Positions 11,212 through 61,784 of a DNA stretch of 64,000 bases are shown here, piece after piece. How positions within the stretch are numbered: position 1 is the stretch's first letter; every line of letters starts with the position of its first letter. The DNA is from Rugalucina vietnamica. Its lineage: Eukaryota > Mollusca > Bivalvia > Lucinida > Lucinidae. The position numbers were made by a program, and so were the translations under genes. The notes under the pieces are model-generated. The model worked only from the letters and a program-made list of their open reading frames with translations, made no database searches and was not told the DNA's origin. The stretch spans positions 29,422,956-29,486,955 of the forward strand of contig OZ024879.1 of assembly GCA_964017185.1 (NCBI GenBank), in the 5' to 3' direction.

Positions 11212-11410
11212 AAAAATCATCGCTGTGGGTTCGCGCCTCGCTCGGGGCACGAGTCACATGTGGGACAAGCCAAGTTCTGCTTGCAGGTGTGTCAGGTGGT
11301 TTTTCCCCGGGTACTCCGGTTTTCGCCCCACCTACCGATTGATTCGTCTCGATATGAGTGAAAAAGCTTGAAAGGGACGTAAAACGTAAAACTGAATAAA
11401 AAAAAATTAA
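11212..11410 (+). mobile_element. SINE with pol III B-box and conserved core
   Basis: GGGTTCGCGCC resembles a B box. Then GACAAGCCAAGTTCTGC, GGGTACTCCGGTTTTC and the tail CTTGAAAGGGACGTAAAAC with an A-rich end. A/T-rich flanks. The A box part is missing or truncated. Confidence 0.68.
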
Positions 11411-15384: not shown

Positions 15385-16323
15385 GACTGTCACGGAGAGC
15401 TGTACCTTAAGATTTTGACATGGAACGTGAATGGACTGAAACGTAAAATTGGCGAATACGATTTTTTACATTTCATTTCTCAATTTGACATTATCTTCTT
15501 AAGCGAAACGTGGATTTCTAAAACAGAAAACACGAACTTCGATATAGACGGTTATGTTTATGACTATATTCCAGGAAATAAAACGAGACGCTCGAGGAAA
15601 GGTCGCTTCAGCGGCGGCATCTCTTTATATTATAAATCTGAGCTAGAGAACTATATCACTGTTTTAGAAAAACATCAATGTGGAATATTCTGGATCAAAT
15701 TGTCTTCCGTATTGTTTCCATTCGATGAAGATGTATATCTTTGTAATTTGTATAATCCACCTAATAGTTCAAATGTATTTAAATCTTTTGATATTGACAT
15801 TTACGACCAATTAGAGGCAGGCATTATTAAATACAATGCTTTAGGAAAGGTTTTTGTTTCCGGTGACTTCAACAGTCGAACATCGGACTCTATTGATTAC
15901 ATTCTTTATGATAAATACATTGACCATAATTTGCAATTTTTTGACCCAACAGACATTCCCTTAAGAAAAAGCCAAGACCAAATTACGGACTATAATGGAT
16001 TGAAATTATTAGATGTGTGTTTATCAACTGGATTATTAATTGCAAATGGTCGTTTACATGACGACAGAAATGTAGGAAAATACACATTTTGTTCTCAAAA
16101 TGGCCAAAGTGTTGTAGATTATGTTTTGCTTAATCTATTAGATTTTGATTGCATATCATATTTTGATGTTTTGAATTTCAATGAGTATTCTGACCATGCT
16201 CCAATCACTGTGCATTTAAATTTAAAACCCAAAAATACGAAATCAGAAACACCTTCTGAAGATTCTTTTATCAGCAGAAAAATAGTGTCGGATGATAGTA
16301 AAATAAATCTTTTTCATTCATAA
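15385..16323 (+). pseudogene. LINE ORF2 endonuclease domain (APE type)
   Basis: Follows the ORF1 stop directly in the same frame. There is no ATG before the domain; it opens LKILTWNVNGL. Endonuclease motifs are visible: WNVNGL, SETW, GDFNSR, VVDYVL and SDHAPI, covering metal and phosphate contacts and the catalytic His. This domain nicks target DNA to prime reverse transcription. The frame stops at TAA (16321-16323) and coding continues in another frame. Confidence 0.88.
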
Positions 16324-16343
16324 CTTTTGAATAATAATAAACA

Positions 16344-26083: not shown

Positions 26084-26168
26084 ATGGAATTTGCAAAACC
26101 AGGGCTACTCTGTGTAGCGGTAATGATTGGATGTATTTTACCCACAAGTGCTAATCCAATTGATCCAG
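26084..26168 (+). CDS. Exon 1: signal peptide exon of the CUB-Sushi gene
   Basis: Encodes 28 residues plus one base: start MEFAKPG, a hydrophobic core (LLCVAVMIGCIL) and a likely cleavage after PTSA. The ATG follows AAA and is followed by G, a good initiation context. The donor GTAAAG follows at 26169 and leaves phase 1, which exon 2 completes as Glu. Upstream, TTTTCTTTGCAG ends at 26031, so the coding start probably sits in the second exon of the transcript. Element E begins 68 bases after the donor. Confidence 0.82.
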
Positions 26169-29100
26169 GTAAAGACAGTCACAAACGGTTACTACAGAAA
26201 TATCTTGTTTTAATCAGTTTCTGTTTTGTGGTTTTTAGCTCACCTGAGCCGAAGGCTCATAGGTGAGCTTATAGTATACCCATGCTCCGGCGTCCGTCCG
26301 TCGTCCGTCCGTCCATTGTCCACAATTTCAAAGATCTTCTTCTCTGAAACCGCTGGGCCGATTGTTCTCATATTACACATACACCATCTACAGGTAGCGG
26401 GAAAGAATAATTGTGTTTTTGTTTTGATTGGATAAGAACTCTGGTTGCTATGGCAACTTATGCTTCCCATAGACTTATATTGGAAAAAGTGAAAATTGCC
26501 AGTTTTTGCTGTCTTGTTGGAGATATTTGTATTTTGTTTTTGCAGAAATGTTTATTGAGTAGTCCTCTACGTTTCATGTGACTTTTGTCGTAATCCTTTA
26601 TTTTGATTGGTTACAGGGGCCCCATATAGGGCAAAATTTCTGGTTGCTATGGCAACTTAAAGTTTCCATAGACTTATAATGGGAAAATTGGAAATCGGCT
26701 ATTTTTTCCGCTAAAATTGCAGACATTTGAATTTTGTTTTTGCAGAAATGTTTATTAGGTAGTGTTTGACGTTTCTTGTGAGTTTTGTCCTAATCCTTTA
26801 TTTTGATTGGTTGCTGGGGCCCCATAAAGGGCAAAATTTTGAAAAAACATTCAAAAAGTCTTCTCCTCAGAAACTGTCAAGTGGTCGAATCCTGTACTTT
26901 GTATACATGTCCCTGACAGTAGCCTCTACATAATTTGTGTTTTTTATTCCAGTCGGATAAGAACTGTGGTTGCTATGATAACTTAAAGTTTCCATAGACT
27001 TATAATGGGAAATTATCAAAGATCTTCTTCTCTAAAACCACTTGGCCAATCAAAGCCAAATTTTATATGAAGCATCTATAGGAAGTGGGAACCAATGTAT
27101 ATATAGATAATCCAGGTCACATGACTAAGATGGCCGCCATGCCCATATATGGTAAAAACCTTTCAAAATATTCTTCTCCAGAACCGGTGAACCGATTTCA
27201 AGGAAACTTGGCATGAAGTATGGATGACTCAAGTACTACAATGTGTATACAAATCATGACCCTGTAATGACCTTGACCTATTTAAGGGCAAGGTCAACAT
27301 AGGTCGCCAATGCATTTGAATGGGGAAAACTTTTTAAATGTCATTTATAGTGAAAATCTTGCAGGAAATAGGCAGTAGGAATGAACATTAATGATTCTGA
27401 AAAAAATGGACCCCAGGGGCTCATATGCCCCCAACCCGGGGCAATATACATGTTTATCTCCATAATATTCAAACATCTTCTCCTCAGAGACCATTTGGCC
27501 AATCAAAGCCAAATTTTATGTGAAGCATCTATAGGAAAGCGTAACCAATGTGTATATAAACTATCCAGGTCACATGACCAAGATGGCTGCCATGCCCATA
27601 TATGAAAAAAAAACCTTCAAAAATCTTCTCCGGAACCGGTGGACCGATTTCAACGAAACTTTGCATGAAGCATCGATGGCTTAAGTACTACAATGTATAT
27701 ATAAATCATTAGCTTGTGATGACCTTGACCCAGTTTATGGCAAGAACATGGGTTACCTATGCATTTGAATGGGTAAAACTGTTAAAATGTCATTTGAATG
27801 GGGAAACCAGCAGGAAATTGGCAAATGGACAGAATATTGATTATTCTGAAAAAAGAAAATGGCCCAAGGGCTTCATCTGCCCCTGCATTAGGGTTAAATA
27901 TCATAATATTCTAACATTTTTATTGGTATATGAAGCAGATCTCAGGTGAGCGTTTACAGGACCATTGGTCCTCTGGTTATCTTTTTTTTCGGAAAATCGG
28001 TTGTAGTTTGCTTAATATGCATGTTATTGTTATTTTTCAAAACTAAAATCCGTCTTTGACTTTGGCCATACCATGGCTTCGGAGTAGTTATTACGCTTTC
28101 CGTTATGAAAGTATTTTTAAAAGTAGTAAGTGCTAGTAAGTACATGTCTATACATATATCTCAATCCGAGAAAAAAAAACCGTTTGATTATCAATGTTTT
28201 AATGATTAATAAAATATAATTGTTAGATCCTTTGGAAGCAGTAAAAACATTCAAAGAGAGAAGGTGGGCCATATTGTACAATTTCGGGTGATGAACCTTC
28301 GTCAGTGACCCTTTAATAAACTGGCAGCGAAAGCCAGACATTCATGATTGCTGCAATTTCTAGAATTTACACAAGTATAGTCTAAATCAAAGACTAATAT
28401 TTCAAAAGAGGCCAAATATTCGAAATTCTGTTAAGATGGTGATTCTTAACATACAATATATTTGAAATACTCCAAATATTTTCACTGATCTCAAAGGATC
28501 AAAAGAAAAATATAATCTGCACTATGGATGATGTACGGGGAGACTTTTTAGGGCCGCCACACGGCACAACACCAGCTGCAGTAATAGCAAATAAAATATA
28601 ATTGTTAGATCCTTTGGAAGCAGTAAAAACATTCAAAGAGAGAAGGTGGGCCATATTGTACAATTTCGGGTAATGAACCTTCGTCAGTGACCCTTTAATA
28701 AACTGGCAGCGAAAGCCAGACATTCATGATTGCTGCAATTTCTAGAATTTACACAAGTATAGTCTAAATCAAAGACTAATATTTCAAAAGAGGCCAAATA
28801 TTCTAAATTCTGTTAAGATGGTGATTCTTAACATACAATATATTTGAAATACTCCAAATATTTTCACTGATCTCAAAGGATCAAAAGAAAAATATAATCT
28901 GCACTATGGATGATGTACGGGGAGACTTTTTAGGGCCGCCACACGGCACAACACCAGCTGCAGTAATAGCAAATAAAATATAATTGTTAGATCCTTTGGA
29001 AGCAGTAAAAACATTCAAAGAGAGAAGGTGAGCAGCCTTTGTGGTCCAGACAGGGTTCCACAATTTGAGCATAGCAAAATTCCCTGACAATTTTATGACT

Positions 29101-32100
29101 TTTTCCTGACTTGAATCAAATTTCCCTGACTCACGTTTGTGTATTTCATTTGAGATAACTATGAAAATGAGCAGGGCTTTGACTAAAGTTTTGCAACGAC
29201 AGTGCGGGGGGAATACCTGGGGTTTGCTTTATAAAGGCAAAAAGGGCCGTGAAATGAAAAGATAGCAGGATGTGGGGAGAAAACAGCACTGGATTTACTG
29301 CACAGAACCTGAACCAGTTAACCCTGAGAGAAAAAAGATCCTAATATTAAAAGTTTGAAATGCATTTTGGATATTTTGGTAAACATTTTAGATGTATTTG
29401 TCATGTTTGTGGGGTACTTACATAAGTAGGCCATACAGCCTGTATGGTAGTGCACAGCAGTGTAGGAGATGCAGGTGTCCAGCACTACAACGTAGCAAAA
29501 TCATTTTGGATCTTTTTAAGACTGGCTTGTGATGGCATTTTAATAAACTGAAGTTTATTTTTTTTCAATATCGCAATTCATTCTAATAAGTTTACCAAAA
29601 TTATGCTTAATTTGTCCATGAAATTGACTATTTTTTCTATATTTTACAGCCAATTGGTAGTGATGGCATTTCAAATAATAAATTGATGATCCGAATACGA
29701 AATTTCAATCAGAATGGAATTATTCTCCAAAAAGAGAAAAGCAACAACACGAATATACAAACATTTTGTTTTCCTAAAAACCGCATGTGTCACAGCCTCG
29801 AAGCAACTTTACACGAATTCTATGATGTAACCTCGATGTCTTCATAGAAGGGAAATGGCCACAGCGCGGGCAAATCTATGTTGACGACTTAAAAACGCCC
29901 AAATACAATCCGACTGAGAACATTTTTGTTCTAAATTTTTGTCCCTCTGAAATTTTCTATTCCGGGTAATGTCGTGACAAGCAAAATTGTTTTGTGTGGT
30001 TTTCGGCGAAAAAACAAATGTCATGTGGCGTCTCTGCGTGAGACGGTACCTTGAAATCTTGGATAAGATGGATAAGATGGATCTAGCTGTACCATATAGC
30101 AGCTATTGTTTTAAGCACAGCAAAAGCATGACATTTTAAGCAAAAGTTTGACCAAACAGTGGTCGCCATTTTGTTTCGAATTATTATGCGCCGAGTAAAG
30201 TTTCAAAATAAAATACAATTACCACCTGCACACTGGTTGCGTTCTCACTGTAAAACAGTTTATATGGGCCACAGCGTGAGAAAATGTTCCATCGGACAAT
30301 TTGTAAGTATCAGACAAACTAATAATTTGAATGTATAATGATTGTCTTTATTTGACCAAATTATTCAATTTTTTTTTGTGATTTATGACCAAACCAATTT
30401 ACTATATGAACCCTACAGATGTCAGTTGTCCTAAAATGACGTCAAAGTTTCGCATTGCATTTCTGCATGCTAGTATTGCCAACAGAACTAGATGACTTTG
30501 CATAAACATGTTTAAACACAAGTCAGAAGCTATTGCTAAGATAGAAGAATATCATCTTTACAGACAATCTGTTGAAATCAGTTTGTTTATTTCTATAACG
30601 ATCCAGTTGCTATGGTTACCGTTTAACAATACATATAGGAAAATTAAGTATATTATGGACTAAAACAAGGGCAACAAAAAATTTAAAATAAATATGGTGT
30701 ACAACTCATTTATTTCGAAGCCCAGTGTTCAAAGATTACATATACAGTGTTATTATAAAAACATATATTACTCGTGTTTCCACTTTTTGCCACTTTATAC
30801 TACTAATGTAAGAATGTCCGAAAGTACATTTTGTCGCGTTGCGTTTCATATTATTTCAAAGTCGATTGAATGTGATTACGGCTGCCCGTCCGTTGCGACC
30901 AAGAGAAAAAGTCGGGCTTCTTGTGCCTTCATGCAAAGTTTATGAAATTATTTGATAACCCATAGCTGTTGCCCTCTCGTCACGGGTGCTTCGATAGTCG
31001 ATACTGAAATGTCTAATGTAATCTTTACAGAATGCGGTGGTTCTGCTAGTGGCCAAAGCGGAATACTCAATTACGATTGGTCACACAGACCAAGAACAAC
31101 ATATAAAGATGAAGGCTATCCAAATTACGCAGATTGTGGCTGGACAATCACGGCGCCACATGGACAGGTTTGCATACTACCATACTTTCTCATATGATAA
31201 ACCTGACAAAGAACATTTAGGTAGTTTGTTATTTACCTGTGTATAGGTTGGCTGAAATAAAGAATTGTCCGTATGGATTTGTTTTGTAACAAAACCGAAT
31301 CACCCGAAAACTAGTAAAGCTCAGTTCAGCTACATTACAAAGATGCGCGCAATGTGCAAAGCGTTGAGAGTTTCAGATAAAAGCTAATGTTATTAGTACA
31401 AAAACTTTTTTTGTACGGCGGCCTTCCTCGCTGTGTCAATGGAAGAATATGCTAAAGTTTTCAGATATATGACCGATTTGGACACAAGAACAAGGTGTGT
31501 TTAGTCCAGCAATAGTGTACTACAATAACCTCTAGTCAATAAAAATTAAAACTGATATCCTTTAAGAGCAGTGAAGACACTAATGAGAAAGGGGATGTGC
31601 CATACCTCGGTTTCGACTATTGATTTTTCAATGTCCGGTAGATTATCCTGGACCTTTACACTGTCAACAAATATATACCAGTACAAATTAGAATCCGGCA
31701 GATTGTCGCAAAACAAGTTCTCTACACCAGATATAACGTGATTTGCAGCGATTCATTGAAGTATGTAAAATATTGTATGTGTTGAATATTTTGTGCTGAA
31801 CATACGACGTTAAAACAATATAGGTTTTGTAAAATTGTGGAAATGTTTTTACGGTAAACAAACAAATCACATTTTAAACAATTATGAATCAAAACCAGAT
31901 CTGGACAGACAAATCGTGCTTACTGACAGGTGGTAGGAGATTAAACGCTGAGGTGAGCATATATATCTTCTCACTCGTCTCTAGTGTCAGTAATTCGAAA
32001 TCGGGGAATGTCATGCAACCTTACAGAATGAGATATTTTTTTTTCTAAATTAGTTTGAATTGATGCGGAAAATCTCAGACATCAGCTATGGTCATGTCGG

Positions 32101-35100
32101 GACATTGTTTTCAATATTTACCACCAAAGTAAGCTACTAAGGCTTATACATATGGATGGTTTGATTTGAACCATTTTTACTACCAGAGCAGTGAACCAGT
32201 AATCTGATGGTTAGTCAGTAGCGTGAAGCCTTGGCTGGAGGCATAAGCAGCCCATCTGTTTCTTTAGGCTCCAATGGGTGGGGACCACTGGTCCCTCCTG
32301 ACCACACTTGGTTGGTCAATTTGGTTGCAAACTTCTTCATGTGTGGTTGCATGATATTTTCCGATTTCACATATGTTTAGCTAATAAGGCAGAATTGCAT
32401 TCTAAACAAACATACCATAGATTCCAACGCAACAGCTAAATGCTGCGCACCTGATTTGAACATTCGATGCTCAGAAAACAATTTTTCACGCCACAATGCT
32501 TATTTTCTTTCTAGATTTTGCAATACAGTTTCGATCATTTTCAATTAGAGGGCGGTTGCTATGACAAAATTAGGATCTACGATGGAACTAGCAACACGGC
32601 ACCATTGCTGGGGAATTTTTGTGGTACTGTGAATCTCACCGGCATTTGGAGAAGTTGCATAAGATCGATCTACTTTCGATTCCTATCGGACTATAGTAAC
32701 GAAATAGGAACATCTACTGGTTTCATAATTAACTGGAGTGCAGGTAAGCACTGACAATTGTTTATGGTTTTGGTTTTCAACAGTGCATACAATATCACAC
32801 ATTCTCAAGTTGTTTTTGTATACTGACATAGAAACGTGTATGTGTACTTTAAAGTACTATTTCTGCAGCTGGTGTTGTGCCGTGTTGCGGCCCTAAAAAG
32901 TCTCTCCGTACATCATCCATAGTGCAGATTATATTTTTATTTAGGTCCTTTGGGATCAGTAAAAATATTCAGTGTTCAAAACACTCACGTTTTGAAACAT
33001 ACTTCTTAGCAATGTTTAAATTATTTGACCCCGTTTAGCAATGTGTCTTTGATTTAGACTTCTCGTGTAAATTTTAAGAAATTGCAGTACAATAGTCTGG
33101 CTTTCGTTGCCGGTTTTAAATGATGGGCTACTGATGAGGGTTCATTACCAGAAATTGCACAATGTAGTCCATACTATCTCCCTTTGAATGTTTTTATCAA
33201 ACCTTTATATTTTATTACTTAAATCAAGTCTCGTCCACCCTGTTTTAGCATTCTATATTATAAAATGGAATTATGTTTATTCCTTATTTTATTTTATATT
33301 ATTATTGATTTATCCCAATACCATCCCATGGATTTTGCTGCTTATCCAAGAGTGTGGAATTGTTTGGACAAAAAGTGTTCAAAATGCAATGACAAAATTG
33401 ATTACCACAGAAAGTTTTCGACTGCACATAAACAACTACTGGATGAATGAAGCAAGATTTTCAATCTACCTTTTGTTATTCATTAAAAAGTGTTTTATAA
33501 TGTAATAAAATAAAAAAAAAAAGTTTTGAGCACAATTTTTTGTCAAGTGATAGGGTTTCCCAAACATATTCTTCCTCCGTTGTAAGACATGATCAGCCAT
33601 GAGTTACAATGAGATACGAACGATATATTTTCATTACAGTTGACCCGAGTTGTCTTCCTATAGCACCACCACCTTCAAATGGGATCCTGTATCCAAACAC
33701 AGTATTAAATGAAGGTTGCAGCGTATCGCTTACTTGTAATCCAGGGTATACTCTAAGTGGTCCATCAGTAGCAACATGTGGAGCAGATGGTCAATACACG
33801 CCAACTCTTGGACAATGTCTTCCGGGTAATGAGAAACTTTTACACTGCTTTAATCATTTTTTCAGCAAGCCTACATAGGATTGAGTACAAATATCACACT
33901 GGTATGTCTTTACGTACAAGGTACGAGTTAAACGTAGTAAACGAGCTCACAACAAACCGACAACGAGTAAATGATTTTTTTGCGGTATTTGTCACATCTG
34001 AGTATTTATTATAAACTTCTTATTATGATTATCAATCAGCATGAAACATGCGTTACGGACCAATGACACTTTTGTGCTCTTCACTCAGATATTGATATTC
34101 TCCAGAAAACCACCTATTTAATGGCAGTGTTGAATTTCTCCTGACAGCTGCTTGAAAAATCGTGCCTTTTGGTACCTCATCGAGAATAAGAAGATTACCA
34201 AACCAACCAAACTAAAAACAAAAACCAAGCAGACCAAAAAAAAAGCATTATTAAATTTTATAATTATTTATTATCTTTCATTACAACGAATAGGAAAATA
34301 ACTCCAAAAAGCTCTTTTTCGTAATTATTTCGTTTCCTATACGTTGTAATATGTTATCATGCTTGTAAACAGAACCAGAAGCTTGTAATAAATTATCAAA
34401 TATAAAAATCCCTCTCCTGCATGTAAAAGTAAACCAGCTGAGACTAAAATTTATCCTGTTCATAAATATTAAAATGCCAACAATTGTATGGTAAATAACA
34501 AATTAGAATGCCTTCAGTATTCTATGGTTTGTTCCATTATTTATTCGTCGAGTGGGTTGTGGTATGACAAGAGATACCGCGCTTCAGCTTCAATTAAAGA
34601 TACACATAAGATAGCCATTCAAAAAATGTTACTGACTACATTTAAGTCTACCGAAAAAAAAATCCGATGGCGTCATATGATCTTTGAAAATGAACATGAA
34701 CAAATGCAAATTTATTGTGACTTTAAAATTTGACATGTTGCTGATTTGCGACCAGTTTTGTCATCGGAGTTTTAATCTTCGGTTTCGAAAGGTATGAACA
34801 GTATTGCTCTGTAGTTTTTAACCCATGTGAGTGAAATTTTGCACGCAATTATGGATTTTCTGAAAACAAAAATCACGTACATATTCGTCGGGCATATATC
34901 GGTCTTCTTGTTTGTGATTCACTAAGTCTAACTGCACCTTCTTACTTTTAGACTGCCCCGCCCCATCTGCGACACCAAACGGTGACTATCATCTCACCGA
35001 TGTGGGTTCGCGCCTCGCACGGGGCACGAATTCATATGTGAGACAAGCCATGTTCTGCTTGCGGGTGTGTCAGGTGGTTTTTCCCCGGGTACTCCGGTTT

Positions 35101-35169
35101 TCGCCCCACCTACCGATTGATTCGTCTCGATATGAGTGAAAAAGCTTGAAAGGGACGTAAAACTGAATC

Positions 35170-35200
<31 letters not shown>

Positions 35201-38200
35201 TGTTTCAAATATAACTACGCAAGTAAGCCACTAAGGCTTATATTTATCGGTGGTTTGAAATGAAACCACTTTTCCTGGATAGGCTCAGACCTGAGCGGTT
35301 ATTCAGTAATCAAATGGTCAGTTCGTAACGTTCAAGCTTAAAGCTTTGCTAGGAGGCACAAGCAGCCCATCTCGAGAGGGTCCACATTCCCATTCGACCA
35401 CTATTATGATCACTAAAAGAAAAATAAGCGCCGGAATACATCTAAGTCTACCGAAAGAATTCCGTCTGCATCATATCATTTTTGAAAATGTACGTGAAAA
35501 ACGCAAATTTAGTGTGAATTTACAGATTGATATGTTGCTGGTATATGCCCAATTTTGTGATCAGAGTTTTAATCTTTGGTTTCGAAAGGAGTGAATACAT
35601 TTGCTTTGTAAACTATTTGTTCAACCCATATGAGTAAAATTTTGCTAGCAATTATAGGTTTTCTGAAAAAAAAATCACGTACATATTAGTCGGGCATATG
35701 TCTGTCTTCTTGTTTGCGATTCACTAAGTCTAACTGCACCTTCTTACTTTTAGACTGCCCCGCCCCATCTGCGACACCAAACGGTGACTACAGTCCAAAC
35801 ATACCAGCGGCGCAGGGGGAAAAAGCTACTTCCAGCTGTGCACTCGGTTACACGAATTTCGGTGCGCAAGAAATTATATGTGGCGCAGGTGGAGTTTGGA
35901 TTGGAAATGCCGACTGTAAAAAAGGTTATGATATTTATAAAGGCAATTGGTAGCAATAAAAGTCGCTTGTTTCAGGATCCAGAAACTCATGGTGATTTTG
36001 GTATGAAACAAATCAGAATGCCTTCAATATTTCATGGTTATTTAAACGTCGAGTGGGTTGTGGTACGACGAACTATCGCGCTTCAGATCCAATTAAAACA
36101 CAAATAAGATTATTACTAAATATATGTGTTCGTTTGAATTGATCCTTAAGGTCTCAGTCAACCACTATGGTCATGTTAAGACGTTAATTAGGACGTTTGC
36201 CCAAAATTAGGATGTCATGACATCCAAAACATGTTTCAAATATAACTACCCAAGTAAGCCACTAAGGCTTATATTTATCGGTGGTTTGAAATGAAACCAC
36301 TTTTCCTGGATAGGCTCAGACCTGAGCGGTTATTCAGTAATCAAATGGTCAGTTCGTAACGTTCAAGCTTAAAGCTTTGCTGGGAGGCACAAGCAGCCCA
36401 TCTATTTTAGGCCCGAAATCGAGAGGGTCCACATTCCCATTCGACCACTATTATGATCACTAAAAGAAAAATAAGCGCCGGAATACATCTACGTTTACCG
36501 AAAGAATTCCGTCTGCATCATATCATTTTTGAAAATGTACGTGAAAAACGCAAATTTAGTGTGAATTTACAGATTGATATGTTGCTGATATATGCCCAAT
36601 TTTGTGATCAGAGTTTTAATCTTTGGTTTCGACAGGACTGAATACATTTGCTTTGTAAACTATTTGTTCACATGAGAAAAATTTTGCTAGCAATTATAGG
36701 TTTTCTGAAAAGATCACGTACGTATTCGTCGGGCATATGTCTGTCTTCCTGTTTGTGATTCACTAGGTTTAATTGCACCTTCTTACTTTCAGACTGCCCC
36801 GCCCCACCTGCGACACCAAACGGTGACTACAGTCCAAACATACCAGCGACGCAGGGGGGAAAAGCTACTTCCAGCTGTGCACCCGGTTACACGAATTTCG
36901 GTGCGCAAGAAATCATATGTGGCGCACATGGAGAATGGCAAGGAAGTGCGGACTGTAAAAAAGGTAATGGTATTTATAAAGGCAAAACGTAACAATTAAA
37001 ACAATATTAATTCAGAGTGTAGCGGATCCAGAAATGTTTCTAGCCTGCCACTACATTTTTAGCAAATATATGAAAAGTAAAAGTAGGCAGTGATCAGAAA
37101 ATGAAATTCCCACTCAAAGATCCGAGATGGGAAACAAGAGGACCAATGGTCCTGTAAACGCTCACCTGATCTGGACAGCTTTACTTGTATGGGAGCTAAT
37201 GACCCCTGCTCTGTGGTGTGGCATGTATGGACAACAGTAGCACAGGTGATAGGGTTTAAAATGAGGATTATTGAACATTGCTACACACAAAATATAACAG
37301 CTCCGGGACTCATGGTTTCTGAGAAGATTTTTTCATATGTTTCCTATTATAAGCCTATGACAGATAATGACGTCCCTGGGGCGTGCCCAGGGTTTATAAA
37401 GAGGATTGCTTAACATTGCTACATACAAAATATAAAAGCTCTAAGATTCATGGTTTCTGAGAAAAATGCTTCTGTGTGCTTTTCCCATTGTAAGTATATG
37501 GGAGCTAATGAACCCTACAGTGGGGCCATTTTGATCCCAGGGGCATGCTTGGCAGGATTTATGTAGAGCACCACATAAAATTGGTTCATACTTAATATTC
37601 AAGCTTTGGGTCTTGTGGTTTCAGATAAGAAGATTTTTTCGTGTATTTCCATTATAAGCCTATGGCAGATTATGACGCCCCTGAGGCGTGGCCTGTATGG
37701 ACCCCAGTGACACGGTTGGCAGGATTTATAGAGAGGAGTACTGTATATTGCTACACACATCATATGAACGCTCCGGGCCTTGTGGTTTCGGAGAAGAAGA
37801 TTTTGTTGTTTTTTTTTTTTTCGATTGTAAGGCTATGAGCTAATGGCCCCCAGGAAGGGGTCATTTTTGATCCCCGGGGCATGATTGGCAGGATTTGTGT
37901 AAACATCCGCATAACAATGATGCATACTACATATAGAAAGTTTGGGTCTTATGATTTCAGAGAAGAAGACTTTTTCATGTATTTCCCATTAAACGCATAT
38001 GACAGATAATGACGCCCCTGGGCGTGGCCTGTATGGACACCAGGGTCACGGTTGGAAGGATTCATAAAGAGGACCACTGTACATTGCTACACACAAAATA
38101 TGAAAGCTCTGGGCCTTGCGGTTTCGGAGAATATTTTTAATGAGTTTCCCATTGAAAGGCTATGGAAGTACCCTTGGAGAGGGGTCATATTTTAACTCCA

Positions 38201-41200
38201 GACACATGATTGGCAGGATTTATGTAAAGCTCCGCATAACAATGCTGCTCAAACATAAAAGCTTTGGGTATTGTAGTTTCAGAGAAGAAGATGTTTTCAT
38301 GTATTTCCCTTTATAAGCCTATGGTAGATAATGACCCCCCGGAGCGGGGCCTGTATGGACCCCAGGGGCACTGTTCGCAGGATTTATTAAGAGGACCACT
38401 ATGCATTGCCACACACACAATATGAAAGCTCTGAGCCTTGCGATTTCGGAAATTTTTGTTTGTACCATTGTAAGTCTATGGGAGCTATCTATTGCCATGG
38501 AAACCACAATTTTGAAACAATTTGCATAAAAAGCTAATGCATTAAATCCCCCAAACCAGTGATGGTTTACATAAAATTTGATCAAGATCGGCCTACTGGC
38601 TTCAGAACTATTTGTCTTTGAAAATGTGGACGGACGCCGACGGACGCCGGATGCCTGTCTATCCTATAAGCTCACCTGTGACCCTTCGGCTCATGTGAGC
38701 TAACAATAAAATCAACAATCAGGTACTTATACTTAGAAACCATATCGAAAGCCGTGTGAGCAGCTATTTCCAAATAGGCGGTCAAGCAGTTACCCAAAAT
38801 TAACTAAATATGAAATCAAACACGCCGAAACATATAACAGTTAAACAACTACAGAAGTATCGCATTGGATCGATCAGTTATATATAAAATAACTGGGGGG
38901 TGGGATTTAAAACAGTTTTACAGGCGCCTAACCTCACACTCAGCCTCTGCAGTGGTTCTATTATACACAAATGTAAACAATAAGGAAAATCATGTTCAGA
39001 AAATATTATATATAGGTACTATCATGTTACGTGTATAACGGAAAGCAGGGTAAGCACTATTTTCATTTTGGGTAACTATTTTTAAAAAAAATCATTCAGA
39101 AAATATCATTTTTATTGTTGAAAAATACTATGTATAGTAAATGCTCTTTTTCGTATTGTCTTTATCAGACTGCCAACTCCTGGTGACACCCAAAAAAGGA
39201 GCAATTGTGTATAGTACTTCAATCAAACCCGGTGATACGCTGGAAAAAGGAACAGTGGCGACGGTCTCATGTAAAAACAACTTCGTGTTAGTGCCATCAA
39301 ACCCATCTATTCTTACCTGTGGCACGGACGGGCTATGGGACGGAGTAGTTGGACAATGCAAAAGAGGTAACTTGTTTAAATTGTTTCTTGTATTTGAGCC
39401 GCATCGTGAGAAAACCGGTTTTTTGCCTAGGCGAAAACAAAGGCGCAGATCAGCTTCGCGGTAACCGCGAAGCTGATCAGCGCCTTTGTTTTCGCTACAC
39501 GGATGGTACAATTTCTCTTCTACTTAAATCCGAAATTTCAAGCTTCTAGCTCTTTTCTGAGCTTGTACAGGTCGGTTTGTGTCGGACCTGGTCGAAAACC
39601 ACATTGTTGGTTTTCCCACGAGGCGGCTCATATTAGACTGAGCATTCGGAGAGTGGTCTGACAAGTAAGATAGGCTCGGGTGAGACCTTAAAACATTGCA
39701 AAGAAATTATGCAGGCTCAGTCTTATACAAGTTTTAAAAGCTCACTTGTGGGAGAGTGTAATGCTAGAATGTTGCATGTTAAACAGCAAGGAGGTCAATT
39801 TATTTTCCAATCCAAACTTATTTTCGGCTTTACTCACTTGGTCAGTAAGTCGGTTTGCAATTTTATGGGGAGACAACGAGCTGTCAATGGGCGGTGCGAA
39901 TCACTCATCTGGATAACATTCCCGTGTAATATATATCCCTTATACCCATCTTTAATATAGTAAAACTGGGGTGTAAAGGGATATACAATTCTTCTTTTTT
40001 TGATCGAAAACAGAGATTGTGGGTACTCGTTAGGACCGCCTCGGCAACATGTACCCAGAAATTATTTTTGAGCACAAATAAATGTGTTTGTTTTCTGATG
40101 AAATTCTCATTTTTACAACTGAAAAAAAAGAAAGTACAAGTAGGCAAAGATCAGGAAAATGCGCAATCAGAAAAAGACTCCCACTCCAAAAACCAAGGTG
40201 GGAAAAAACTAAACTAACAATCAGGTACTTATACCATGAAAACATTTCGTAAGCCGAATGAGCAGCTATTTTCCCAATAGGTGGCCACTCAGTTACCTTA
40301 ACTAAAAATTTGCAAACATACATAAGGCGCCAACAGCACAAAAATATTTTAAACACCAAGACATAAAACAAAAAGAACCACCACAGAAGTATCGACTTGG
40401 AACGATCAGTAACACAAAGTTACTGGCGGGTTTAAATCGATTTCACACGGCCGTAACCTCACCCTCAGCTTCTGCAGTGGTTCATAACATTTAGTTAGTT
40501 CTTCGGTACTCGTGGTGAATCTCTAACTAGTAAATGAATCATCAAGAACAAACAAATAAATCATTATAAACATCCCGATGAATCAAAAACCAGGACTCAC
40601 AGATTCAGTAAGCTGCGCGATGATGGAGATCCCTGGGCGCCAAATAACTTACTAACTCCGAAAACAATCTTTGGGCAAGTTTTCGTCATAGTGTGTACAG
40701 ATGGTACAGATGGTTTCCTAGACCACATAAGAGCCGCATCGTGAGAAAACCTGAATTTTGCCTATGCGAAAACAAAGGCGCAAATCAGCTTCGCAGTAAC
40801 TGCGAAGCTGATCAGCGCCTTTGTTTTCGCTACACGGATAGTACAATTTATCTTCTTCTTAAATTCGAAATTTCAAGATTCTAGCCTGCTCTTGTGACTG
40901 TACAGGTCGGATTGTGTCAGACCTGGTCGGAAGCCCCGAAGACCGGTTTTCTCGCGTCACGGCTCATAAGCGAGTAATACTTTCTCAGGTGGCATTACGA
41001 AAACTTGCCCATGCAATAAACAGATATTTTTGAGCTTGAAATATTAAAAATCTTTAGCTGGAAACTTTTGATATTTTTCTTATTTCTGCTCAAAATATAG
41101 ATTGTGGGTACACGTTAGAACCACATCGTCGAGGCGGTTCTAACGAGTACCCACAATCTATGTTTTGGAGCAAAACTAAGAAAAATAGGTATACCCCTGC

Positions 41201-41796
41201 ATACCCCAGTTTTGCTATATAAAAGTGGGGTTCGAGGGGTTATACATTACACGGACATGTTTTCGTAATGGTCAGATAGTCGGTTGGCATCCATCAGGAT
41301 AACATGTCCGTGAAATGTATACCTCCGGAAACCCCACATTTATATAATAAAACTGAGGTTAACAGGGGTATATATTTTTTTTTCTCATTATGTCTTTCCC
41401 ACAATCAATGTTTTGAACAAAATATGAAAAAAAAAATCGATTTTTTTTTTCAAATGAAATTTCCATTTTTTACAACTTACAAATTTCTATTTAATGCATA
41501 GGCGATTTTTTGTAGTTAAATTATGTTTTGTTTCAGAATGCGTAAAAAGGGTAAAGATAATCGTGAGCGAAGCCGTAGGAGGCACGGCAAAATACAAAAA
41601 AGCTGTCTGTCTTTGGGATAACAAAAAACTGATCAAGCTGGTGAAGAAGTTAAATGGCGAGATAGTCCAGAAATGGATAAAGAAAGAAGGCGAAGGTTGG
41701 GAGACAACAATGCTGGCGCAAGGAGCTGAAGATGATCGTAAAAACTGGAATAAACCCTTTCAAGATTGGGTCGAGGACATGAAAATGAACGAGTAA
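26084..41796 (+). CDS. Secreted CUB-Sushi(x4) protein with novel C-terminal domain (gene model, 8 exons)
   Basis: Spliced model: 26084-26168, 31031-31167, 32515-32743, 33640-33825, 35754-35924, 36793-36963, 39169-39366, 41537-41796. All introns are GT/AG and the phases (1,0,1,1,1,1,1) fit without a stop, giving 478 residues. Order: signal peptide (about 1-23), CUB (30-150), Sushi 1 (155-210), Sushi 2 (214-267), Sushi 3 (271-324), Sushi 4 (328-390), unrecognised basic domain (393-478). Known CUB/Sushi proteins act outside the cell in adhesion, complement-like recognition and matrix assembly; a secreted recognition or matrix role is inferred here. No transmembrane segment or GPI signal is visible. 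Introns are 0.9-4.9 kb and full of mobile elements. An untranslated first exon upstream is likely (acceptor at 26030-26031). No transcript was available, so exons I did not recognise could be missing. Confidence 0.85.
26237..27973 (+). mobile_element. Element E (1.74 kb) in intron 1, hairpin ends
   Basis: Starts with an imperfect 33-base hairpin (AGCTCACCTGAGCC ... GGCTCATAGGTGAGCT) followed by GTCCGTCC repeats, and ends with the near-palindrome GGACCATTGGTCC. The inside has diverged subrepeats (TTGCTATGGCAACTTA; CATAGACTTATAATGGG; CATGACCAAGATGGC). No coding capacity seen. A second copy in reverse lies in intron 6. The transposon class is unknown to me; likely non-autonomous. Confidence 0.75.
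28211..29027 (-). repeat. Repeat C tandem array, exact 382-bp period
   Basis: Units start at 28211, 28593 and 28975 (third partial). The two full units differ at only a few bases. Each holds TCCTTTGGAAGCAGTAAAAAC, TTCGTCAGTGACCC and GGCCGCCACACGGCACAAC. In intron 1. Confidence 0.88.
29030..31030. other. Distal intron 1
   Basis: Mostly unique. On - strand an AAAATGGCGACC start context at 30169 resembles a YY1-type promoter element but leads to a short frame (28 codons). Confidence 0.4.
31031..31167 (+). CDS. Exon 2: N-terminal half of CUB domain
   Basis: Acceptor ATCTTTACAG ends at 31030; donor GTTTGC starts at 31168 (weaker than consensus). Encodes residues 29-74. Visible CUB features are the opening ECGG with Cys30, the EGYPNYADC segment with Cys64, and the following W-x-I strand. 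Cys30-Cys64 is the usual first CUB disulfide. It ends in phase 0 and continues directly into exon 3. Confidence 0.85.
31545..31625 (-). repeat. Repeat C fragment
   Basis: TATCCTTTAAGAGCAGTGAAGAC and GCCATACCTCGGTTTCG only. In intron 2. Confidence 0.5.
32080..32345 (+). repeat. Repeat D copy in intron 2
   Basis: TATGGTCATGTCGGGACATTG, AAGTAAGCTACTAAGGC, GTAATCTGATGG and AAGCAGCCCATCTGTTTC. Confidence 0.62.
32515..32743 (+). CDS. Exon 3: C-terminal half of CUB domain
   Basis: Acceptor TTTCTTTCTAG ends at 32514; donor GTAAGC starts at 32744. Encodes residues 75-150. It has the conserved CYDKIRIYDG block (Cys89, Asp91), NFCG (Cys110) and F-x-SD-YS with Asp133, followed by TGF. These acidic positions match the calcium-binding CUB signature of the family. 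Cys122 is extra and unpaired in a standard CUB, so it may bond elsewhere. Ends in phase 1. Confidence 0.88.
32860..33185 (+). repeat. Repeat C fragment in intron 3
   Basis: CTGGTGTTGTGCCGTGTTGCGG to CCATACTATCTCCCTTTGAATG, closest to the 382-bp array subtype in intron 1. Confidence 0.65.
33265..33521 (+). other. Small Cys-containing ORF with poly-A-like tail in intron 3
   Basis: A 61-codon frame (33265-33450) begins with a hydrophobic stretch resembling a signal peptide (MELCLFLILFYIII) and then has cysteines in a C-x4-C-x2-C cluster. An AATAAA signal and an A-rich run follow at about 33503-33521. It could be a retrocopy, a small nested gene or chance. No homologue recognised. Confidence 0.2.
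33640..33825 (+). CDS. Exon 4: Sushi/CCP domain 1
   Basis: Acceptor TTTTCATTACAG ends at 33639; donor GTAATG starts at 33826. Symmetrical 1-1 exon of 186 bases, residues 151-212. The four Sushi cysteines are Cys155, Cys183, Cys197 and Cys210; Cys177 is additional. The PSNG and NPGYTLSGPS segments are typical. The usual tryptophan before the last cysteine is replaced by Tyr203, an atypical feature. Confidence 0.88.
34952..34988 (+). pseudogene. Truncated Sushi exon remnant (third duplicate)
   Basis: The first 37 bases of a Sushi exon nearly identical to exon 5, with an intact acceptor (CTTACTTTTAG). At 34988 the match stops and a SINE begins. Only the start of the domain (DCPAPSATPNGDY) remains; three of its four cysteines are missing. 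Upstream intron sequence from about 34488 matches the area after exon 5, so this was a full tandem copy before the deletion. Confidence 0.8.
34989..35204 (+). mobile_element. SINE copy that replaced most of a Sushi exon
   Basis: Nearly the same sequence as at 11.2 kb with a longer A-rich tail (35169-35200). Begins exactly where the Sushi exon remnant ends. Confidence 0.78.
35198..35405 (+). repeat. Repeat D piece in duplicated Sushi unit 1
   Basis: Starts at ATGTTTCAAATATAAC right after the SINE poly-A; the upstream part present in unit 2 is deleted here. Confidence 0.65.
35754..35924 (+). CDS. Exon 5: Sushi/CCP domain 2 (duplicated copy)
   Basis: Acceptor CTTACTTTTAG ends at 35753. The donor is GTTATG at 35925, weaker than the GTAATG of its sister exon 6, so this exon may be skipped at times. 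Residues 213-269, phase 1-1, 171 bases. Cysteines 214, 241, 255 and 267 and Trp261 fit the Sushi pattern. It lies in a tandemly duplicated block with exon 6. Confidence 0.86.
36130..36445 (+). repeat. Repeat D copy in duplicated Sushi unit 2
   Basis: Complete, with GATGTCATGACATCC palindrome, AAGTAAGCCACTAAGGC and AAGCAGCCCATC. Confidence 0.68.
36793..36963 (+). CDS. Exon 6: Sushi/CCP domain 3 (duplicated copy)
   Basis: Acceptor CTTACTTTCAG ends at 36792; donor GTAATG starts at 36964. Same length and phase as exon 5. By eye it differs at 14 bases, 12 of them replacement, giving 8 different residues. Half of these lie at residues 315-321 (equivalent to 258-264 in exon 5), just before the last cysteine. 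Cysteines 271, 298, 312 and 324 and Trp318 are kept. Confidence 0.88.
37073..37137 (-). mobile_element. Element R tail, left half, split by Element E
   Basis: Begins with the R 3' terminus (AAGTAGGCAGTGATCAG) and stops at GAGATGGGAAACAA where Element E starts. The remainder resumes at 38702. Confidence 0.7.
37138..38701 (-). mobile_element. Element E (1.56 kb) in intron 6, reverse copy
   Basis: Begins GAGGACCAATGGTCC and ends at the AGCTCACCTG/TGTGAGCT hairpin in reverse orientation. AACAA occurs at both edges (37133-37137 and 38702-38706), a possible 5-bp target duplication. It splits an R tail. Inside, a roughly 230-base unit (CAGGATTTAT ... TTGCTACACACA ... GTTTC-GAGAA) recurs several times. 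Confidence 0.75.
38702..38960 (-). mobile_element. Element R tail, right half, split by Element E
   Basis: Resumes the R tail (AACAATCAGGTACTTATAC, then GAGCAGCTATTTCC) after Element E. Diverged towards its distal end. Confidence 0.68.
39169..39366 (+). CDS. Exon 7: Sushi/CCP domain 4
   Basis: Acceptor GTCTTTATCAG ends at 39168; donor GTAACT starts at 39367. Phase 1-1, 198 bases, residues 327-392. Cys328, 361, 377 and 390 and Trp383 fit the Sushi pattern (TCGTDGLWDG). A MITE-A copy begins 30 bases inside the following intron. Confidence 0.87.
39397..39629 (+). mobile_element. MITE-A copy just after Sushi exon 7
   Basis: Terminal repeats and the inner hairpin are present. Flanks ATTT and ATAT match at only three of four positions. 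Lies 30 bases after the exon 7 donor, so its hairpin would be close to the 5' splice site in the transcript. Confidence 0.83.
39916..40130 (+). mobile_element. MITE-B copy interrupted by element R
   Basis: Left part of a MITE-B ending at TTTTTACAACTGAAAAA, where the R tail starts. The right end (GGGCAAGTTTTCGTCATAG) reappears at about 40672. Confidence 0.68.
40131..40662 (-). mobile_element. Element R tail inserted inside a MITE-B copy
   Basis: Reverse-oriented R tail including the GGCGCC and CTTACTGAATCTGTGAG region. MITE-B sequence stops on its left (39916-40130) and resumes on its right (about 40663-40684), so R landed inside the MITE. Both lie in intron 7 of the CUB-Sushi gene. Confidence 0.75.
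40731..40965 (+). mobile_element. MITE-A copy, target duplication ATAA
   Basis: Ends GAGCCGCATC and ACGGCTC, with ATAA on both sides (40727-40730, 40966-40969). Inner hairpin well preserved. Confidence 0.84.
40993..41270 (-). mobile_element. MITE-B copy, complete
   Basis: CATTACGAAAACTTGCCC to GGACATGTTTTCGTAATG, the clearest pair of inverted ends. Central hairpin well formed. In intron 7. Confidence 0.83.
41292..41513 (+). mobile_element. MITE-B copy, diverged, 24 bases before exon 8
   Basis: CATCAGGATAACATGTCC at the left, GCATAGGCGATTTTTTGTAG at the right; one arm of the centre is lost. Its right end abuts the branch-point region of exon 8. Confidence 0.65.
41537..41796 (+). CDS. Exon 8: unrecognised basic C-terminal domain and stop
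   Basis: Acceptor TTATGTTTTGTTTCAG ends at 41536; the frame continues from phase 1 and stops at TAA (41794-41796). Residues 393-478. Opens with Cys394; a second cysteine is Cys417. It is rich in lysine, with Trp419, 439, 447, 463 and 470 spaced through an apparently helical, charged segment, and ends in acidic DWVED and MNE. I recognise no family. Base composition (more G) differs from the surrounding intron, supporting coding use. Its position at the end of a secreted receptor-like protein suggests an effector, oligomerisation or ligand-binding tail, but that is speculation. Confidence 0.8.
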
Positions 41797-41954
41797 TACA
41801 TTATGTTAACACACCCATGTCAAATCATCTGATGTACGACTGTTTAACTTGTCTGTATGTATATGTTTCATACATGGTTTCGCTTCATATGCGCCATACT
41901 TTACCTTTAGTTTGGTGCCGCTCTTTTGTTTCAAGCTTTGGCGCCTTTGGATGA

Positions 41955-42465
41955 TCCGGATGGTATGCCCATATAATGTACTGTATACCCACTTAGACCC
42001 CGCGTTTATATCGTAAAACTGGGATGTTCAGGGGTAAACATATTTGAGCCTGTGCATGAGAAAACCAACAATTTGGGTTTCCGACCAGGTCTGACACAAA
42101 CCGGCCTGTACAGTCACAGAAGATGGTTAGAGGCTTGAAATTTTGTATTTAAGTAGGAGAGGGATCGTACTATCCGTGTAGCAAAAACAAAGGCGCTGAT
42201 CAGCTTCGCGGTCACCGCGAAGCTGATCTGCGGCTTTGTTTTTGCCCATGCAAATTGTTGGTTTTCTCATGCACTGGCTCATTTTTCTTATTCTTGATAC
42301 AAAGCATTGATTAAGGGTACTCGTTCGAACCGCCTCGCTGAGGTGATTCTAACGTGTACCACCCACAATATATGTTTTCAGTACAAATAAGATTTTTTTT
42401 CTGGAGAATATTTTAAATTTTACTGCTGAAAAAATCTGTAAAATGCATGAGCAGTGTTTCGTAAT
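41955..42465 (+). mobile_element. MITE-B copy interrupted by MITE-A
   Basis: 41955-42045 and 42285-42465 are the two halves around the MITE-A insertion. Hairpin landmarks TACTCGTTCGAACCGCC and GCAGTGTTTCGTAATG are on the right half. Confidence 0.75.
42046..42280 (-). mobile_element. MITE-A copy inside a MITE-B, target duplication ATTT
   Basis: ATTT at 42042-42045 and 42281-42284. Removing the element with one ATTT restores the MITE-B consensus across the junction (AAACATATTTTTCTTATTC), which confirms both the ends and the 4-bp duplication. Confidence 0.87.
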
Positions 42466-42625
42466 GATCCTGTAGTCACAGTATTTATTTAACTTGTCTT
42501 GTAGTACTTGTTTGCCCGTACCTCCAGCTCCATCGGACACCAGTGCACAACTTTACTTTATTTATACTATTTACGAGTATACTCGTCTTAACAAACGTAT
42601 TTTCTAGATGGTAGGATGAAATAGA

Positions 42626-42653
42626 ATGTATGTATGTATGTATGTATGTATGT
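42626..42653. repeat. (ATGT)n microsatellite
   Basis: About seven tetranucleotide units. Confidence 0.92.
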
Positions 42654-42805
42654 TTTAAGGAAATTTAAGTAACATGGGTGTGTTTCAAACACAAGAAGGG
42701 AAAGAATTGGTGGTGGGCGATTGATTAGAATTTGAAAGTTATCTCGAATGAATAAAGTAATGATCCCTTAATAACTTGTTGTGTTAGTTTTCATTTTTAT
42801 TTAAT

Positions 42806-43115
42806 TTCAAGTAGGCAATGATTAGGAAACAGGATAATCAGAAAAAAAAAACACTCTAAAAACCGAGGTGGGAAAAGCTAAAATGACAACCAGAAACTTA
42901 TACTATGAAAACATATCGTAAGTCGAGTGAGCAGCTATTTACCAATTAGGCGGCTACACACGAACTTAATAAAATATGTAAACGTACATAAGGTGCAAGC
43001 AGCAAAAAAATTAAAAACACAAAAACAAAAACAATTAATACCAGACCGCACGTATCGCTTTGGAAGGATCAATAATATAAAGCTACTGGAGGCTTAAACC
43101 TTCGTACAACAACCG
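42806..43115 (-). mobile_element. Element R, 3' tail fragment (diverged)
   Basis: Recognisable by CAAGTAGGCAATGATTAGG, CCGAGGTGGGAAAAG, GAGCAGCTATTTACC and GTATCGCTTTGGA. More substitutions than other copies, so probably older. Just after it a 20-base ACTGACAATCGAACAGTTA unit is repeated twice (about 43119-43168). Confidence 0.65.
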
Positions 43116-43145
43116 TGGAAGATTGTTCGACTGACAATCGAACAG

Positions 43146-43234
43146 TTAGACTGACAATCGAACAGTTACTGCAAAGCTGATCTGCGCTTTTGTTTTCGCA
43201 TATCCGAAAAGCCGGTTTTTTGATGACGCGGCTC
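43146..43234 (-). mobile_element. Truncated MITE-A fragment
   Basis: Retains half of the hairpin (CTGCAAAGCTGATCTGCGC) and one end (GACGCGGCTC). Confidence 0.6.
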
Positions 43235-43534
43235 ATATATAGCCGACATTGGAATTTAGAACATCCATCTATAGGTAAAATACTTTGATCTTGCCGCTTG
43301 AACTCACGTGATGAAGTTTTATAAACACGATAAAAGGGGCACCTATTTGTTTTACACATTTTTTTCCAGTGCCATGTGAAGCACGTGGTCATATATTGTT
43401 TGCCGCCATTGGGTCGCATAATTGATAACATAGTTATGTTTTAAGCAGTCCGATCAACAAATGCATATCTATGTCAGAAGTTAAGCGGCACGGTCAAAGT
43501 ATTTTAACTATATACTGGAGCACCACCAAAGTAA

Positions 43535-43773
43535 GAGCCACCTCATGGAAAAAAACAAAAATGTGGTTTCCGAACAGGTCCGACACAAATCGGGCTGGCT
43601 GTACAAGCACAGAAGATGGCTAGAGACTGGAAATTTTGGATATAAAAAGTAGGAGAATCGTACTATCCGTGTAGCGAAAACAAAGGCGTTGATCAGCTTC
43701 GCGGTTACCGCAAAGCTCATCTGCGCCTTTGTTTTCGCATATGCAGATTGTTGGTTTTCTCATGAGGCGGCTC
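43535..43773 (-). mobile_element. MITE-A copy, no clear target duplication
   Basis: Complete but more diverged (GAGCCACCTC ... GAGGCGGCTC). Flanks GTAA and ATTT do not match. A Repeat D fragment follows immediately. Confidence 0.8.
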
Positions 43774-43774
43774 A

Positions 43775-43870
43775 TTTGTTCGTTTGAATCGATGCTTAAC
43801 GTCCCAGTCGACAGCTATGGTCATGTCTGGACGTTGCCTCAATCAATTTTATGGGATTTTTACCCAATAT
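43775..43870 (+). repeat. Repeat D fragment next to MITE-A
   Basis: TCGATGCTTAACGTCCCAGTCG, TATGGTCATGTCTGGACG, ATTTTATGGG. Confidence 0.5.
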
Positions 43871-43884
43871 TAGGTCAAGGGCAC

Positions 43885-44230
43885 CGGGTTAAGGTGCGTG
43901 CTTGAAGGGTATGTCCAGGACTATTACTATGCAAGGTTTCAGACTCGCAGCTATCTCTGATGTCGAGAAAACCAAACTTCGACGTAAATGTTGACAAAAC
44001 TTCAATATAAAAATTTTCAAAGTCAGTGGACCGTGAAATATAGATCAAAGCCACCGATTTAAGGTGCGTGCTTGAAGGGTATGTCAGGGACAACTACTAT
44101 GCAAGGTTTCAGACTCGCAGCTATCTCTGATGTCTAGAAAACTAAACTTCGACGTAAATGTTGACGGACGGACTGACGGACCGAAATTTGGACTCCTATA
44201 TCGCACCCTGCTATAAGCAGGTGCGATAAA
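43885..44230 (+). repeat. Direct repeat (about 105 bp x2) ending in a hairpin
   Basis: AAGGTGCGTGCTTGAAGGGTATG through AACTTCGACGTAAATGTTGAC occurs at about 43890 and 44060. A stem (44199-44211 with 44217-44228, TATCGCAC/GTGCGATA, one bulge) closes the block. Confidence 0.78.
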
Positions 44231-45189: not shown

Positions 45190-45990
45190 GCGCCTTCAAT
45201 TACGTACATCTGCTACGAAAGAGATTTCATGGATTCTCTTAACCAAGATAATCAAGCTGATGTTATCGAGGCTTTTAATTCCACATCTAGGTACCTCGAT
45301 GACCTTTTGAACATTGACAACCCTTATTTTGAAGGTATGGTCAATCAAATTTATCCACCTGAACTTCAGTTGAACAAAGCCAATATCACAGATACTGAAG
45401 CCCCATTTTTAGATCTACATCTTTCTGTTGCAAATGGATTTGTTTCTTCTAAAATTTATGATAAGCGAGATGACTTTGATTTTGATATAGTAAATTTTCC
45501 TTTTTTGGATGGTGACGTTCCTCGTCGTGCTTCTTATGGTGTATACATTTCGCAACTTATTAGGTTTGCTAGAGTCTGCAATCATGTTACAGACTTCAAC
45601 GCTCGAAATAAATGTTTAACGGCAAAACTTCTCCAACAGGGCTATCGGTATCATAAACTTCGAAAAACATTTTCTAAATTTTATCGTAGACACTATGAAT
45701 TGATTTCCAAATATAATGTTGGGTTAAAGACGCTTTTAAGTGAGGGTCTTTCGAAACCTGAATTTTATGGTGACTTGGTTTACAAATTTAAGAAACTTAA
45801 AGGAATTAATGATTTTTCTTTTCAGTTCAGAAAAATCATAACACGTTACAGACGTATAGGTTATAACTTAAATGTTATGCGACAGTCTGCATGCTTAGTT
45901 TTTAACCCAATCATGGTTGATAACTATGCTGCCTTCTTTAATTGCACGCCGGTGGGTCGGGCGTCAGACTCTATGATGGCCCCGACATAA
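45190..45990 (+). CDS. C-terminal part of a YLDD-type reverse transcriptase (element R)
   Basis: An open frame runs through the ATG at 45229 to TAA at 45990 (253 residues from that ATG); the reading frame continues upstream without the ATG being needed, so the start is artificial. SRYLDDLLNI is the RT catalytic motif. Downstream come FLDLHLSVANG, IYDKRDDFDFDI and QLIRFARVC, in the order seen in Penelope-like RTs after the catalytic core. No GIY-YIG endonuclease follows. The upstream RT motifs are missing. Assignment to the Penelope-like group is tentative; RT identity is more certain. Confidence 0.7.
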   Translation, partial: APSITYICYERDFMDSLNQDNQADVIEAFNSTSRYLDDLLNIDNPYFEGMVNQIYPPELQLNKANITDTEAPFLDLHLSVANGFVSSKIYDKRDDFDFDIVNFPFLDGDVPRRASYGVYISQLIRFARVCNHVTDFNARNKCLTAKLLQQGYRYHKLRKTFSKFYRRHYELISKYNVGLKTLLSEGLSKPEFYGDLVYKFKKLKGINDFSFQFRKIITRYRRIGYNLNVMRQSACLVFNPIMVDNYAAFFNCTPVGRASDSMMAPT

Positions 45991-61438: not shown

Positions 61439-61463
61439 AAAAGGTATATACATTAGTTATTAC

Positions 61464-61784
61464 CTAAAAGAGGGTGACTGTTTATAATGTCGTCCATAGT
61501 TGAAGTCACTTCTTGCTGGTAAAAGACTATATAGGCGTCTTTTCTCATTGCCTTAATCTTCGTCTCCCACATGTGCAGTAGTCTGTCTGCTTGATATGTT
61601 GCACCAAGTCCTCTTATTTGTTCGATCTCCCTTAAGATGAGGCTCTCTATTTCACGCATGTTTTTGTTTCTTATGCTGCGGAATCTCTGTCTTTCAGATT
61701 TGGTCATGAACAGTGGTGTAAGTTTGTCCCCTTTACCTGGCGAGATCCCTTTTGAAATGTCCTCTAGATACAACTCTCGGTTGC
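61464..61784 (-). CDS. Candidate internal exon, 1-1 phase, - strand
   Basis: Acceptor TTTTATTAAAG (- strand) and donor GTAATA frame 321 bases with an open frame of 106 codons. It is charged and helical (EDISKGIS, ERQRFRSIRNKNMREIES, ADRLLHMWETKIKAMRK). The length far exceeds chance expectation in AT-rich DNA only moderately. No family recognised. Confidence 0.38.

Follow-up and report, generated by a model that had tools for sequence, protein, structure and literature searches.

A predicted CUB-Sushi protein of Rugalucina vietnamica with an unassigned C-terminal segment

Does a gene whose inner exons are recognisable as CUB and Sushi modules end in a domain of its own, or merely in an open frame that follows an AG by chance? 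This question is raised by a locus of Rugalucina vietnamica, which lies in the window, that is, the whole 64-kb stretch of DNA that was analysed. CUB, Sushi and similar modules, combined with lineage-specific domains, make up many of the recognition and matrix proteins of invertebrates. An earlier, sequence-only reading of the locus had proposed a full-length secreted protein encoded by eight exons joined in phase, with one CUB domain, four Sushi modules and a last part that matched no family. Here, we examine the gene structure, the recognisable modules, a duplicated Sushi exon and the last exon, and then weigh what the protein might do.

Gene structure and the CUB-Sushi part

At the level of sequence, eight exons (Table 1) join into a frame of 478 codons that ends in TAA. 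All seven introns start with GT and end with AG, and the proposed eight-exon, in-phase frame was thereby borne out at this level. The phases of introns 1 to 7 are 1, 0, 1, 1, 1, 1 and 1, and the sole phase-0 intron lies within the CUB domain. Exons 4–7 are each symmetrical 1-1 Sushi modules, and the frame would survive the skipping of any one of them. Acceptors and donors were scored by weights; the weakest of the seven donors is that of exon 5 (AAG/GTTATG), which ranks 156th among 953 GTs. Searches with Rfam and ARAGORN gave no matches. Intron 1 carries 2.2 copies, at 99%, of a 382-base unit (28208–29030), part of which is found inverted in intron 3 (32848–32969).

Table 1. Coordinates of the exons and of associated features within the window.
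Feature	Position	Strand	Content	Basis
Exon 1	26084–26168	+	Start codon and signal-peptide-like leader, residues 1–28; phase 1 donor	Leader judged by eye
Exon 2	31031–31167	+	CUB, first part	Exon joining, Pfam
Exon 3	32515–32743	+	CUB, second part; acidic E86, D91, D133	Exon joining, Pfam, PDB sequence alignments
Exon 4	33640–33825	+	Sushi 1; five Cys, no Trp	Exon joining, Pfam, residue count
Exon 5	35754–35924	+	Sushi 2; tandem duplicate of exon 6; weak donor GTTATG	
Exon 6	36793–36963	+	Sushi 3; DNA 91.8% identical to exon 5	
Exon 7	39169–39366	+	Sushi 4	Exon joining, Pfam
Exon 8	41537–41796	+	Orphan C-terminal segment, residues 393–478, and stop codon	
AATAAA	42751–42756	+	First AATAAA/ATTAAA 3' of the stop codon; putative function	41797–44000 searched
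Truncated third copy of the exon 5/6 Sushi exon	34951–34988	+	Acceptor kept; outside the joined frame	

Pfam recognised a CUB domain (PF00431) over residues 55–137, with an E value of 2.6e-12 and 47.4 bits against a curated cut-off of 21.4. It also recognised four stretches of Sushi/CCP (PF00084), with an E value of 7.8e-27 and 93.9 bits for the whole protein against a cut-off of 20.7. Because of these E values, chance is ruled out as an explanation of the predicted CUB and Sushi exons, and the architecture claimed by the sequence-only reading was confirmed. The Sushi modules contain 5, 4, 4 and 4 cysteines, in that order, and tryptophan is absent from the first. The secreted-type start that had been proposed also stood, a leader resembling a signal peptide being recognised by eye; no membrane span was seen by eye in the protein.

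Residues 1–392 have 81 relatives among PDB sequences at E ≤0.01. The best 60 of these 81 include complement receptors 1 and 2, beta2-glycoprotein I, cubilin, PCPE-1 and neuropilins. In five CUB alignments (cubilin, PCPE-1, neuropilin-2), acidic residues stand opposite E86, D91 and D133 wherever the alignment extends that far; these positions would correspond to the acidic calcium sites of calcium-binding CUBs. Exon 3 contains both N-glycosylation sequons of the protein (N114 and N147), and the C-terminal tail has none. The animal gene itself is credible.

Divergence of a duplicated Sushi exon

Exons 5 and 6 belong to a tandem duplicate whose two copies occupy 35195–36000 and 36226–37040. The exons differ at 14 of 171 bases, while their upstream introns are 96.6% identical (19 of 551 aligned bases differ, with 24 gap columns), and the exon is thus the more diverged part (Fisher p 0.019). 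The pair has a dN of 0.088 and a dS of 0.082; ten codons differ, and eight of these differences change the amino acid. Relaxed or diversifying selection would fit such a pattern. The differences are unevenly placed, with 10 of the 14 falling within 35855–35914. The 76 aligned bases 3' of the exons are only 60.5% identical, and similarity declines steadily towards and past the 3' end of the exon. A simpler cause of this gradient would be gene conversion or the limit of the duplicated unit, with the exon lying on the border of the block of similarity. A single pair of 57 codons cannot decide between selection and the simpler cause.

Over 363 aligned bases, the truncated third copy shares 84.6% identity with the copy that holds exon 5. 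It retains an intact acceptor and still encodes the module's first 13 residues, after which it is interrupted by unrelated sequence; part of the interruption (34994–35029) is found again at 11217–11252. This copy is possibly a cryptic exon.

The last exon and the segment that it encodes

Exon 8 is the weak point of the gene model. It may be a chance open frame following an AG, in which case the protein would end otherwise, for example by read-through into the intron after exon 7. Such frames are indeed frequent. In simulations of the 3.4 kb downstream of exon 7, 208 of 500 regions contained an AG that leads into a phase-1 frame open for at least 85 codons; the figure was 60 of 1000 once the acceptor had to score at least as high as that of exon 8. 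Because 208 of 500 simulated regions have one, the length of the frame is uninformative, and we rejected it as evidence of coding when taken alone. The acceptor of exon 8 is middling, with 57 of 895 AGs scoring equal or higher. What counts against chance here is that 41537 is the only acceptor of this strength with such a frame in 39367–42750, and that an AATAAA follows at 42751. Two other AGs after exon 7 open onto such frames, at 39674 and 41516; both are weaker acceptors, and the frame of the latter overlaps exon 8 in the same reading frame.

The base periodicity of exon 8 was reached in just 38 of 1000 simulated open frames, which again argues against chance, but it was equalled by 9 of the 77 real windows of 85 open codons in the 64-kb stretch, some of them antisense to a retroelement or without known coding content. 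In protein-like composition, exon 8 comes second of the 86 frames that stay open for 80 codons or more; the first is an open frame immediately 5' of a retroelement endonuclease. This score, computed against reference amino-acid frequencies, is 0.15 for the tail versus −0.031 to 0.175 for the proven CUB and Sushi segments; because the proven segments span this range, the measure is a blunt one. A codon-usage model trained on exons 2–7 of the same gene gave −0.468 for the exon 8 frame versus −0.534 and −0.447 for the other two frames. It does not discriminate between frames, and it neither supports nor refutes coding; this want of preference, like the absence of homology described below, is what a chance frame would show. 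Periodicity and composition favour a coding exon 8. Overall, we regard a chance frame as unlikely, and exon 8 is probably coding and the last exon of the gene.

Two further origins were considered and rejected. Exon 8 is not a degenerate Sushi module, as Pfam finds no Sushi stretch in it and, when the whole protein was compared with the window by tblastn (E ≤10), exon 8 showed no resemblance to Sushi. It is not a regional repeat either: no listed repeat family covers 41537–41796, and the tail has no second copy in the window, where its own tblastn search returned the self-match and five matches at E ≥3.4. Several copies of a dispersed element of about 200 bases, in both orientations, flank exon 8 within 39395–43777.

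Elsewhere in the window, a LINE-like element with several open frames lies at 14665–18728 and comprises pieces of an endonuclease (Exo_endo_phos, 1.8e-12) and of a reverse transcriptase (RVT_1, 5.3e-12), its outer limits being guessed from the neighbouring frames. An open frame of 266 codons at 45190–45990 has the highest codon periodicity of the 77 open windows; Pfam gave nothing for it at E 0.01, and it contains, by eye, a YLDD-like motif, presumably that of a reverse transcriptase. On the minus strand, a 120-codon open frame at 61456–61815 ranks fourth of 86 in protein-like composition, has no Pfam match at E 0.01, and is possibly an exon of another gene. A minisatellite with a 14-base unit in about 66 copies (73% matches) occupies 57167–58095.

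The tail has 86 residues, and a count of 16 lysines, five tryptophans and two cysteines upheld its description in the sequence-only reading as lysine-rich. Its pI is 9.1, while its net charge is just +4. Of the 18-residue windows starting at residues 431–461, 22 of 31 are net negative; the tail carries both basic and acidic stretches. It starts at a phase-1 border, as the Sushi exons do. The strongest amphipathic stretch of the tail has a hydrophobic moment that was reached by 430 of 5000 shuffles, and an antimicrobial-like amphipathic helix was on this count rejected as a demonstrated feature.

The tail had 0 matches in Pfam at E 10 and nothing credible among PDB sequences or phage records. 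PHROGs returned noise (best E 0.12), as did NCBIfam (best E 0.077 at 12.4 bits, where the cut-off is 580), and 0 of 20 pattern stretches in viral contigs and 0 of 185 in prokaryote genomes were confirmed. The claim that the tail matches no family therefore held in all of these collections. Capture of the tail from bacteria or viruses found no support in the phage, viral-contig and prokaryote-genome collections. We call the predicted segment an orphan in the sense that it is in no described family of these collections. The sequence-only reading had suggested a profile search and a structure prediction of residues 393–478. The first left the segment matchless among family profiles, and the second yielded no usable fold: AlphaFold, run on the single sequence without homologues, gave a mean pLDDT of 44.8 and a pTM of 0.27. 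Four fragments of the tail had no occurrence in open-access PMC papers, and the architecture as a whole was undescribed in open-access PMC titles and abstract starts, which is weak evidence.

Related proteins and possible roles

Beta2-glycoprotein I (apolipoprotein H), which matches residues 152–343 at an E value of 1.5e-19, is likewise a secreted Sushi array ending in a positive, Trp-bearing C-terminal unit. A passage of PMC5056467 describes its domain V as having a positive patch, a membrane anchor at Trp316 and an extra disulphide. It differs in lacking a CUB and, according to the same passage, in having five Sushi modules, the fifth with an extra loop and a third disulphide, whereas the protein here has a CUB and four Sushi modules followed by a tail with two cysteines and no Sushi match.

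The CSMD and Sez6 proteins also carry CUB and Sushi modules on one extracellular chain, and a passage of PMC6506821 places CUB- and Sushi-bearing proteins at synapses. Our protein might then be a synaptic or developmental organiser of this class, resembling LEV-10 (CUB) and LEV-9 (Sushi) of C. elegans, Sez6 and the CSMD proteins, in which the tail would signal processing or clustering. We consider this improbable: CSMD2 is described in that passage with 14 CUBs with Sushi modules between them, 15 further Sushi modules and a membrane span, whereas here there are just one CUB, four Sushi modules and no membrane span by eye, and nothing in the gene points to synapses. Still less probable, to the point of being hardly credible, is a relative of the complement-like proteases MASP, C1r and C1s that has lost its catalytic part. 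These proteins also place CUB before Sushi, MASPs combining the two in the passages of PMC11312191, and the CUB domain does match MASPs, although weakly and less closely than it matches the CUBs of cubilin, PCPE-1 and neuropilin. Their order is CUB-EGF-CUB-CCP2-serine protease, whereas Pfam finds no EGF above cut-off, no second CUB and no trypsin domain in the protein here; moreover, MASP-like proteins of Mollusca are without CCP domains in the same passages. Since a defining feature of each is missing, the predicted protein is not a member of the CSMD, MASP or beta2-glycoprotein I groups, and it would be best filed under the common secreted animal CUB-Sushi class, with an unassigned tail.

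The most specific reading of the protein is that of a secreted, soluble, modular adaptor, to which we give a probability of roughly 0.3; its CUB-Sushi part would provide partner recognition, and its basic, Trp-rich tail would tether it to an anionic surface. Once the exons were spliced as predicted, the leader would direct the protein out of the cell. The CUB domain, with its acidic residues retained at the presumed calcium positions, would bind a partner, and the four Sushi modules would form a stalk and an additional binding surface. The 86-residue segment of the last exon, possibly closed by a single Cys394-Cys417 disulphide, would then fix the molecule to such a surface, for instance a membrane, a polysaccharide or a mineral matrix, much as domain V, by its positive patch and Trp anchor, serves beta2-glycoprotein I. 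The PDB relatives (complement receptors, beta2-glycoprotein I, cubilin, PCPE-1, neuropilins) work outside cells, which would suit an adaptor, and the pI of 9.1 for the tail versus 4.9 for residues 24–392 speaks for an anchor. Against a surface anchor stand the ordinary hydrophobic moment, the small net charge, the many negative windows and the lack of a usable structure. No homologue shows conserved residues, and beta2-glycoprotein I is an analogy, its domain V being a modified Sushi module. Alternatively, the tail of the same secreted adaptor may be a folded domain for protein-protein interaction or oligomerisation, confined to one animal clade, with its charge incidental. The composition rank, the presence of basic and acidic stretches alike, and the separate exon with its phase-1 start border agree with such a domain, but AlphaFold gave no confident fold and homologues are absent from the collections searched, none of which covers animal proteomes. 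This alternative is slightly likelier than the anchor, since it claims less; it too is tentative.

Sushi proteins are contained in the molluscan shell matrix (passages of PMC4660305 and PMC6003135) and are tabulated among the transcripts altered in infected bivalves (passages of PMC7772429 and PMC4133350); these passages describe neither the present architecture nor the present tail. Because Sushi proteins are known from both settings, roles in immunity and in shell formation would both be plausible, and neither is favoured by the present sequence evidence.

The gene is credible; its tail, although interesting, is unproven, and any function is proposed from composition and architecture. Tentatively, the last exon may encode an undescribed extracellular domain of one animal clade, joined in phase 1 to a CUB-Sushi protein whose array is still duplicating, and the whole would be a new recognition or matrix factor. 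A tail private to one gene would be an ordinary case. Should the tail prove to be a true folded domain that has relatives, it would establish a new family of extracellular domains and offer a concrete target for structural and binding studies.
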